Made by a program: the position numbers and the translations under genes | Source: Candidatus Afararchaeum irisae | GTDB taxonomy: Archaea; Halobacteriota; Halobacteria; Halobacteriales; Afararchaeaceae | Reading direction: 5' to 3' | Assembly (NCBI GenBank): GCA_034190545.1 | Contig: JAXIOF010000029.1 | Span: 1 to 42,087 of the forward strand | DNA: 42,087 nt | Part shown: piece by piece, positions 23,479 to 42,087 of the stretch | How the letters are laid out: each line of letters opens with the position of its first letter | Numbering within the stretch: the stretch's first letter is position 1 | Notes under the pieces: model-generated | What the model saw: the letters and a program-made list of their open reading frames with translations, nothing else | Database searches by the model: none | Told to the model about the DNA's origin: nothing

Positions 23479-23866
23479 ACACGTTGAGGAGAGTAAGCCC
23501 CCTTCTGTTCACCACGGCATTCAGCTGAGCACCGACTATCGAGGCAGGGCTTACCATAGCCGGCTTGCACCCACGGGGATTCGCCGTTCCACCGTTCCCT
23601 CGCCGTCGTGTCTCGGAAGGTTAACTCGTCGGCGTCTGTAAGTAGCCGTCGACTTCGCGTTCCTCATCGATCGGGCGAGGACGTGTCGTTTCTGTTCCAG
23701 AGCCGCCGGTCTCCCGACCCCGGCTTGTCTGCGTGGATCGGAACCGACCCACGTGCTCGCTGAGAGTCCCAGCGAACGCCGAGCCGTGTGCCCTGCGGTG
23801 GGGGGACTTTCCTCGTTTGGTACGTCTTAAAAACGTACCCACGGGAGCCGTGCTTCCTCTACGTGT
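23479..23866 (-). ncRNA. rnpB: RNase P RNA, archaeal type
   Basis: Read on the minus strand, the region contains the universally conserved RNase P RNA core: CGAGGAAAGTCCCCCCACC (CR-I, near 23820-23802), then GCAGGGCACACGG. Near the 3' side come GCAAGCCGGCTATGG and ACAGAAGGGGGCTTAC (CR-V, near 23508-23493). The ends pair as helix P1: ACACGTAGAGGA (23866-23855) with TCCTCAACGTGT (23490-23479), with one mismatch. This sets the limits at about 388 nt. Protein-like frames inside it are spurious. It processes 5' ends of pre-tRNA. Confidence 0.95.
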
Positions 23867-38314: not shown

Positions 38315-39589
38315 TTGTCTATCCGAGAAGGAGTGGGAACGTATTTCGTCACGAGACTACTACAGTATGTAGTGACAGACATACTCCGTGAGAGCTCCGA
38401 CGAGATACTTGAGAGGAGGACACGTGAGGGCATAGAGGAAGCAGTCTGTGAAACTCTTACCTCGACAGCGACGTACACACGAGCCTGGGTTTCTGAGGTG
38501 AAAAATCGGAACGAGGTCGTCTTACGTGAGTACGGCGTCGAAGGGGAGACAGATCCGAGAGGCTGTCTATCAGACACAGAGAAGGAAGCCGTCCTCGAAT
38601 CCGCCGAGAGACGTGAGAGACGAGTCGTCGAGAGCCGCGGTACGGCAGACACAGACACAGATACAGATACAGATACCGACGACACAGACACGGGTACCGA
38701 CGCCGAGACTGAGTACATAGCCACAGTTCCAATAAGTTTCGAGGACGTTCCCTACGGTATCCTCGGTGTGGTTTCCGAGAGACGTTTCAGCGACGACGAG
38801 GTACATACCTTCGAGAGCCTGAGCGACCTCGTAGGATTCACTATAAGCTCCGCCGAGACGAGAAAGAGCCTCCTGTCGGACAGATACGTCGAGCTTGAGT
38901 TCGGTGTCTCGGACTCACGTCTCTTCTCTGTCTATGTCTCGGAAGAGCTGTCTTCGACTGTTGAGATCGAAAGCATGGTACAACGTCCTGACGGTAGATT
39001 CCTCCAGATACTCACAGTAGAGGTAGACGGTACCGCCGACTCCGAGATACGTGGGATAGCGGAGAGGTTCGGGAAGATTGACGAGTACGCGAGGATAGCC
39101 GTCCCGGATGACACCGCGACCGAGGGTAGATGTAGATGGGCTGTGATCACCTCGAAGCCGTGTATAGCCGCAGTCATAGCCGAGCACGGGGGCAAGCTTG
39201 AGACGGCAGCCGCTGACGACGGCGAGGGAACAGTAGTAGCCCGTCTTCCGCCCGAGTCTGACGTGTCGGGTCTAATGGAGTCGTTAGAGTCGGAGTACGA
39301 CGGAGTGGAGATACTAGCAAGACGTGATCCCGCGAGAAGACCCAGAGGACGCGGGATCGGGGATGAAGACACAGACGGAGACAGCCGTGTCGCGTCCTCC
39401 CCGACTGACGGTCTGACGAGGAGACAGACGGAAGTCCTGGAGACGGCTTATCTCAGCGGATACTTCGAGTATCCGAGATCTAAGACCTCCGACGAGGTCG
39501 CCGATATGCTCGGGATCTCTCAGCCCACCTTCTCAGAGCACATACGTGAAGCCGAGAGCGAGATACTCTCGTCTATTCTCGGAGGCTGA
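38315..39589 (+). CDS. Bat-like transcription regulator (GAF-like + HTH_10)
   Basis: In this 424-aa protein, the C-terminal about 60 residues (LTRRQTEVLETAYLSGYFEYPR, read in part, then SDEVADMLGISQPTFSEHIREAE) are the HTH_10 domain of bacterio-opsin-activator regulators. The region about 50-190 looks GAF-like (EYIATVPISFEDVPYGILGVVSERRFSDDEV), and the Bat middle domain follows. A DT repeat (TDTDTDTDTDDTDTGTD) interrupts the GAF part. The start is uncertain: TTG at 38315 or GTG at 38333 are candidates. Confidence 0.86.
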   Translation: MSIREGVGTYFVTRLLQYVVTDILRESSDEILERRTREGIEEAVCETLTSTATYTRAWVSEVKNRNEVVLREYGVEGETDPRGCLSDTEKEAVLESAERRERRVVESRGTADTDTDTDTDTDDTDTGTDAETEYIATVPISFEDVPYGILGVVSERRFSDDEVHTFESLSDLVGFTISSAETRKSLLSDRYVELEFGVSDSRLFSVYVSEELSSTVEIESMVQRPDGRFLQILTVEVDGTADSEIRGIAERFGKIDEYARIAVPDDTATEGRCRWAVITSKPCIAAVIAEHGGKLETAAADDGEGTVVARLPPESDVSGLMESLESEYDGVEILARRDPARRPRGRGIGDEDTDGDSRVASSPTDGLTRRQTEVLETAYLSGYFEYPRSKTSDEVADMLGISQPTFSEHIREAESEILSSILGG

Positions 39590-40417: not shown

Positions 40418-41455
40418 ATGAGAGCCGCAGTCTATAACTCGCCCGGAGATATATCAGTCGAGGAGGTTCCGAAGCCGGAGATCGACAGCCCGAACGACGC
40501 CGTGGTACGTATCACACACACTGCGATCTGTGGCTCCGATCTCTGGTTCTACCGCGGCGAGAAGGATCAGGAGCCGGGTTCACGCGTTGGTCACGAGCCG
40601 ATGGGGATAGTCGAGGAGGTCGGCGACGACGTCCGCTCAGTCGATCCCGGAGACCGCGTCCTGGCACCCTTCTCTATAAGCTGTGGAGACTGTGAGTTCT
40701 GCAGGAAGGGACTCTACACGTCGTGCGTTAAATCCGAGTCGTGGGACGACGAAAACGGCGGGGCACAGGGAGAGTACGTCCGGTGTCCCTACGCCGACGG
40801 AACTCTCGTGAGAATACCTGACAGACACGCCGACGACGACGCACTCGAATCCCTTCTTCCCCTCACCGACGTCATGGGTACGGGACACCACGCTGCGAAG
40901 AGTGCGCGTGTCGGAGAGGGTGACACGTGTGTGGTTATAGGGGACGGAGCGGTTGGTCTCTGTGGAGTCCTAGCCGCAAGCCGTCTCGGAGCCGAACGTG
41001 TAATTGCGGTGGGACACCACGACGACAGGCTCGAAGTCGCCGAGGAGTTCGGAGCGACCCAGACAGTCTCGGAGAGGGGTGAGGAAGCCATCGAACGCGT
41101 ACGTGAACTCACATACGGCGGTCCGAACCACGTACTCGAATGTGTAGGTGCGGCGTCTTCGATGGAGACCGCTGTCGAGGTGTGTAGACCCGGGGGTACT
41201 GTCGGATACGTCGGAGTCCCATACGGCGTCGAGAACGAGGGATTCGACGTCTTCTCGTTCTTCCGGAAGAACGTCGAGTTACGCGGAGGCGTCGCCCCGG
41301 TTCGTGCGTACGCCGACGATCTCATGGAAGACGTCTTACAGGGTACTCTCGATCCATCACCGGTATTCACGAAGACGGTGAGTCTCGACGAGATCGCTGA
41401 GGGCTACCGTGCGATGGACGAACGCGAGGCGATCAAGGTTCTCGTGAAGCCTTAG
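40418..41455 (+). CDS. Zinc-dependent alcohol dehydrogenase (MDR family)
   Basis: The ATG at 40418 gives 345 aa with the family start MRAAVYNSPGDISVEEVP; the frame stays open upstream into osmC and is ignored. The catalytic zinc Cys38 is in HTAICGSDLWFYRG, then GHE at 58-60. The structural zinc Cys cluster is CGDCEFCRKGLYTSC, and the nucleotide fold is VVIGDGAVGLCG. The physiological alcohol is unknown. It ends 1 base before the frameshifted tail of the convergent pilin gene. Confidence 0.92.
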   Translation: MRAAVYNSPGDISVEEVPKPEIDSPNDAVVRITHTAICGSDLWFYRGEKDQEPGSRVGHEPMGIVEEVGDDVRSVDPGDRVLAPFSISCGDCEFCRKGLYTSCVKSESWDDENGGAQGEYVRCPYADGTLVRIPDRHADDDALESLLPLTDVMGTGHHAAKSARVGEGDTCVVIGDGAVGLCGVLAASRLGAERVIAVGHHDDRLEVAEEFGATQTVSERGEEAIERVRELTYGGPNHVLECVGAASSMETAVEVCRPGGTVGYVGVPYGVENEGFDVFSFFRKNVELRGGVAPVRAYADDLMEDVLQGTLDPSPVFTKTVSLDEIAEGYRAMDEREAIKVLVKP

Positions 41456-41456
41456 C

Positions 41457-41593
41457 CTAGCCGGTCTCGTGTATCCGTACTACGTGTTTCCCGCCGTCGT
41501 GTGTCGCCATGAAACGAAGACGGACGTTCTCGCCGGGGCAGATCGCCCAGTCTGATCCGCCTGGAACTCCTATGTCGACGTCAGTAGGGGGGG
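41457..41593 (-). other. Frameshifted C-terminal tail of the pilin-like gene
   Basis: Directly after the C7 tract (41587-41593 on the plus strand as G7), the +1-shifted frame continues as TDVDIGVPGGSDWAICPGE, then NVRLRFMATHDGGKHVVRIHETG and a stop at 41457. This is a coherent protein end that stops 1 base from the alcohol dehydrogenase gene. With six C instead of seven, the pilin would read through into it. Confidence 0.75.
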
Positions 41594-41964
41594 TTCCCGT
41601 TTCCTACTACCTCGTTAGCCAGATACTTCGTGTCACCTATCTGAGAAGAGGGGTCGTCCCAGACTGTTTTATTGACCTTTCCACCGTCACCGAGGACATA
41701 TATGTGATCCGCCTTGGGAGCCGATACTAGGGTCGCCTTAATCCCTATCTCGTTGTCAGCGCACGGATCGTCAGCGTCTTCCGAAAACGTGTACTCTTGG
41801 GTCTCGATTCCCGCGAAACCCGGCTCCTCGGGTATGTTGTCGCTTGAGACCTCCATAGCCGTAATCCCGACGACAGAGGCTATCATAACCGCTATTACGA
41901 CCATCAGAATCACTCCCACGGTCGAAGAGATTGCCTTGTCTCTTACTCCCTCACCGTCTACCAT
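41581..41964 (-). CDS. Type IV pilin-like protein (frame interrupted)
   Basis: The N-terminus MVDGEGVRDKAISSTVGVILMVVIAVMIASVVG is read here in two parts: a short charged leader ending RDK, then the class III hydrophobic helix (AISSTVGVILMVVIAVM) of archaeal pilins. This is the substrate type of the prepilin peptidase at the window start. The extracellular part has two Cys-like features (DDPCADNE; Cys also in the shifted tail, WAICPG). As sequenced it stops early (127 aa) after a run of seven C; one base fewer gives 168 aa. It may be a sequencing error, a mutation or phase variation. Confidence 0.82.
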   Translation of the reverse strand: MVDGEGVRDKAISSTVGVILMVVIAVMIASVVGITAMEVSSDNIPEEPGFAGIETQEYTFSEDADDPCADNEIGIKATLVSAPKADHIYVLGDGGKVNKTVWDDPSSQIGDTKYLANEVVGNGNPPY

Positions 41965-42087
41965 GTAGATGATTTATTATGTAGATATTTGAGTCTTCTG
42001 CCTGTGCTGAAAAGATAGGGCTAGGTCAGGACTCATTCGTCTTTAGCTAAGACTCACACCTCGGTTGCGTAGCGGTAACTAGCGTCT

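Follow-up and report, generated by a model that had tools for sequence, protein, structure and literature searches.

The window, by which we mean the entire 42,087-nucleotide stretch that was analyzed, is one whole contig (C29) of the genome of a salt-loving archaeon, 1.9 Mb in 117 contigs. Near the end of this contig, the minus strand carries a type IV pilin gene that is divided over two reading frames, and the features of the locus are the following:

41581-41964, minus strand: N-terminal part of the pilin (127 aa), with the ATG start, the Pilin_N hydrophobic helix and most of the beta domain (PF07790, E 1.4e-5; profile of the intact relatives, positions 3-127, E 5e-22)
41587-41593, minus strand: C7 homopolymer, the likeliest site of the one-base frame change, as the longest run in the 20-nt switch interval
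41457-41603, minus strand: C-terminal part of the pilin in the +1 frame, 48 open codons and then a stop at 41459-41457, with the second conserved cysteine (profile positions 125-161, E 2.2e-10; codon score +10.2; match to the Halorutilus copy, E 8.1e-5)
41965-42033, minus strand: short stretch upstream of the pilin, apparently AT-rich near the start
42034-42087, no strand assigned: 54-nt repeat at which the contig is cut, also present at the ends of three other contigs

The frame that begins with the ATG runs from 41964 to 41581 and ends as GNGNPPY-stop, with the stop one codon past the C7 (G7 on the plus strand), while the +1 frame is open from 41603. The switch between them was confined to 20 nt (41603-41584); besides the C7, these contain a few runs of at most three bases. 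The C7 lies at codon 124 of 168, that is, 74% along the gene, and is the longest C/G run of the window. A single base (41456) separates the end of the tail from a convergent plus-strand ORF ending at 41455, which encodes a zinc-type dehydrogenase, and 123 bases lie between the pilin start and the contig end. The first-pass annotation had described a pilin-like frame that stops shortly after seven C, a +1 frame continuing to a stop one base from the next gene, and a pilin of 168 aa upon restoration, and each of these was confirmed, including the combined length of the two joined frames. Elsewhere in the window, the minus strand contains an archaeal RNase P RNA at 23482-23863 (Rfam RF00373).

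The assignment as a pilin, also made at first pass, was verified with the Pilin_N model (PF07790), which scored 26.2 bits on the N-terminal frame, and 26.7 bits in a second search, against a curated cut-off of 25.2. Like the solved haloarchaeal pilins 8gi2 (Natrinema PilA2), 8fj5 and 9myg, the protein has the N-terminal hydrophobic helix, with matches between E 1.6e-7 and 3.2e-5 over query residues 8 to 55-65. It differs from them in being divided over two frames and in its C-terminal part, whose VDVDIG...CP motif was found only in a small subfamily in the searches of the order and family. A working member of this subfamily is expected to have the full C-terminal domain in one frame; here, the frame ends at residue 127, and the rest of the domain lies in +1. 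A single-sequence AlphaFold model of the read-through pilin was poor (pLDDT 45, pTM 0.29).

Next, a profile was built only from the three relatives with an uninterrupted gene (G298, G250 and G394) and run against all six frames of the window. Both the N-terminal piece and the tail were recovered with the E values given above, and the next best match had an E value of 0.72. The gene of G394 hits an assembly gap just past the domain, and its unknown residues were kept in this profile. When only G298 and G250 were used, the E values were 1.2e-19 for the N-terminal piece and 1.7e-7 for the tail, with the next best at 0.48. The three-relative profile thus spans both pieces from end to end, indicating that the tail is the genuine C-terminus of the pilin and that one gene extends over two frames. 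The codon score, which was trained on the window itself, favored the +1 frame for the tail (+10.2, against -30.0 and -16.6 for the two alternatives); for reference, in-frame 42-codon segments of the window genes averaged +13.5 (sd 6.7), and out-of-frame ones -25.6 (sd 9.9). Moreover, 30 columns were invariant in an alignment of four homologs. They include two cysteines, C68 in the N-terminal piece and C142 in the tail, and this pair, shared by all four, could form a disulphide. Having a stop of its own, the short frame is a valid ORF and could be read as the normal product, with the tail an open frame arisen by chance; however, the tail matches the intact relatives (E 2.2e-10) and carries a conserved cysteine, and we regard this reading as highly improbable. 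A chance open frame as the origin of the tail was ruled out by the profile match together with the codon score.

The relatives were sought by alignment in 392 genomes of the order and 170 genomes of one family, two overlapping sets. The genomes available as relatives share the order of the source genome, and none belongs to its family. Across the 392 genomes, matches were mostly to the general pilin N-terminus, and the near full-length members amounted to the window pilin, G009, G298 and G250, with G394 added from the 170-genome set. A GTDB scan with the N-terminal piece alone gave no match, the same scan with the four-row alignment gave one, and no homologs of the window pilin were found in viral contigs. 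The gene is open throughout in G298, G250 and G394, and in these three no homopolymer inside it reaches six bases. In G298 and G250, the intact pilin adjoins a second, different pilin-like gene in divergent orientation. The homolog of G009 lies on a stretch identical over 6,279 bases to Halorutilus salinus F3-133 (NZ_RKLV01000006.1), and it is split too, profile positions 6-52 being read in a different frame from 58-162. It resembles the window pilin in having 36% identity over the read-through length and a +1 change between the pieces; it differs in its neighbors, which include an eIF5A-like gene recognized by eye, and in the place of the break, near residue 57 within a stretch of about 30 bases containing an A6, some 70 codons upstream of the C-terminal C run. 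Two of the five near full-length members are therefore broken at or near homopolymers. The short form is not common to all the relatives, as three are whole and that of Halorutilus salinus is broken at another site. Judged from the sequences compared, the same gene is broken at different places in two lineages, and the three whole relatives together with this second break make a real damaged or variable copy probable in the window.

That the downstream piece is one base onward in both the window pilin and the Halorutilus copy raised the question of programmed +1 recoding, in which the ribosome or the RNA polymerase would slip on the C run and both proteins would be made from one gene. A proline-encoding C run is a plausible slippery site. 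Nevertheless, a programmed frameshift is expected to have its shift site conserved in orthologs, and this was not observed: the Halorutilus break lies far upstream of the C run, and the three relatives are uninterrupted. Because the site is not conserved, recoding is very unlikely.

The repeat of 53-54 nt is found at the ends of contigs C29, C19 and C2, with a variant at the end of C66, and in the window it starts about 70 bp upstream of the pilin start. It resembles the terminus of a repeated element, possibly a mobile one, and contigs cut after 53-54 shared bases suggest a short-read de Bruijn assembly. No inverted repeat was found within 41400-42087. An invertible promoter derived from this repeat was considered and rejected, given the lack of an inverted repeat in that interval. 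A terminator and promoter scan, whose promoter models are bacterial, gave nothing useful.

A further explanation is that the break is an error of sequencing or assembly at the C7, living cells having one open frame. Homopolymers are the usual place of sequencing errors, and the tail is fully conserved with good codon usage, as would be expected of an intact gene. The distinct C/G runs of at least seven bases in the genome were inspected: 14 of 31 were clearly in frame inside unbroken genes, 15 were intergenic, near gene ends or undecided, and only two genes were apparently broken at such a run, i.e., the window pilin and a Bat-like regulator on contig C14, a pair that speaks for errors. On contig C64, 2821-4926, seven C/G runs of 7-9 occur within about 2 kb, mostly poorly coding, the contig being of 5.5 kb. 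A codon-path scan was also carried out over 242 kb, made up of the window and ten stretches, one of which was picked knowing the C14 case. It returned 92 frame switches, of which 73 had a start codon close by, as for neighboring genes, and 19 did not; nine of the latter were read, and these comprised the C14 regulator as a clear case, an ambiguous COX15/CtaB case, one at an assembly gap, and otherwise ordinary neighbors. Frame breaks were rare in the sampled 242 kb, although the scan is noisy and misses small breaks, the window pilin itself not being flagged because of its short tail. The ambiguous case, at 15380-17339 of contig C36, could be either a split gene or overlapping genes: a COX15/CtaA piece comes first, and a COX15 piece joined to a UbiA-type (CtaB-like) domain comes after it in a different frame.

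The C14 regulator seems to be split between ORFs 104-1090 and 1029-2222, with the C8/G8 run at 1037-1044; the first piece (397 aa) contains a PAS domain, and the second (328 aa) contains BAT and HTH_10. A paralog in one frame in the window (38315-39589) matched the second piece from residue 40 on with an E value of 2e-19, and had no significant match to the first (best E 1.5). As the paralog matches only the second piece, the break at the G8 run is likely but unproven.

Against an error at the C7 stand the in-frame runs, the rarity of other clear breaks in the 242 kb, and the contig ends, as consensus errors at a C7 are uncommon in the type of assembly that they suggest; jointly, these lower the odds of error. 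In addition, an independent isolate has a broken homolog: Halorutilus salinus F3-133 is described as sequenced with Illumina HiSeq 4000 reads and assembled with SPAdes (PMC10134839). The first-pass annotation had called a sequencing error equally possible, and this was too generous to error, with breaks rare, 14 of the 31 runs in frame, and the gene of the Illumina isolate broken elsewhere. An error is a possibility to be taken seriously, yet we hold it rather unlikely.

The same data were examined with regard to phase variation, in which slipped-strand changes at the C7 would switch the pilin between full-length and truncated forms within the population, as at C/G runs of bacterial surface genes. 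The gene encodes a surface appendage, its break falls at the longest C/G run of the window, the tail is still open and conserved, two of the five full-length family members are broken at or near homopolymers, and a second gene of the genome, the Bat-like regulator, is apparently split at a G8. Furthermore, a poly(G) run of 7 nt in pldA of H. pylori has been reported to be phase variable (PMC2831843), so that a run of seven bases is in principle able to switch. The two cases are alike in having a C/G homopolymer of about seven within a surface-related gene, with the frame change of the window pilin at its run; unlike pldA, the run of the pilin shows neither enrichment nor conservation, sits well away from the 5' end, and is known here from one assembled sequence. 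Although the homopolymer is at the break, runs of G7/C7 in the window are not above chance (one seen against 2.77 expected from shuffles), and the genome as a whole shows no enrichment, with 42 matches to C/G runs of at least seven against about 125, a rough expectation obtained by scaling up the window shuffles. The run is also not kept in the relatives, as homopolymers in the three intact genes stay below six bases, and equally long runs stand in frame in other genes. On contig C20, a C8 at 2522-2529 closely precedes a TATA-like stretch in front of an intact pilin paralog; the near-twin of this paralog on contig C55 lacks the run.

The phase variation put forward in the first-pass annotation is thus possible in principle, but it gained no positive support: the short run comes after about three quarters of the coding sequence, and the three intact relatives lack it. 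We consider it improbable, and the wider proposal, of homopolymer phase variation of an archaeal type IV pilin, perhaps together with the Bat-like regulator, in a subfamily that two haloarchaeal lineages would have silenced independently, each at a different homopolymer, is still a little less probable. In the titles and opening parts of abstracts of the literature library searched, we recognized no paper on an archaeal surface filament being turned on and off by a homopolymer. As for the capacity of the genome to repair slips, a MutS homolog is present and NucS was not found in it. Hypermutation through missing mismatch repair was discarded because of this MutS homolog, and a genome prone to slipping gains no simple support.

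Collectively, we favor a lone haloarchaeal Pilin_N type IV pilin gene with a genuine one-base frame change, likeliest caused by a slip in the C7, in a gene that is weakly or intermittently maintained, and we give this reading a probability of roughly 0.52. A plain loss-of-function mutation, which the first-pass annotation had left out, fits the data best. In favor of the preferred reading, both frames match one continuous profile built from intact relatives. A replication slip in the C7 would have produced the frame change, and the product would be a pilin of 127 aa that keeps the N-terminal hydrophobic helix but is missing the end of the beta domain along with the second conserved cysteine; such a truncated pilin would probably be non-functional or unstable. 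The tail is still clean, which suggests a lesion that arose recently or that occasionally reverts. The subfamily is patchily kept, probably under weak or intermittent selection. Against a genuine lesion of this kind, the MutS homolog should repair slips, and a clean tail would also fit a switching gene. The lesion could in principle revert, and there is so far no sign of its use as a switch.

Should the C7 vary in living populations, the locus would exemplify an archaeal surface filament turned on and off through a homopolymer. Otherwise, this would be an ordinary decaying or polymorphic pilin gene, and the analysis would still document a small subfamily of pilins whose cysteine pair is conserved and whose reading frame is interrupted at separate sites in two lineages.
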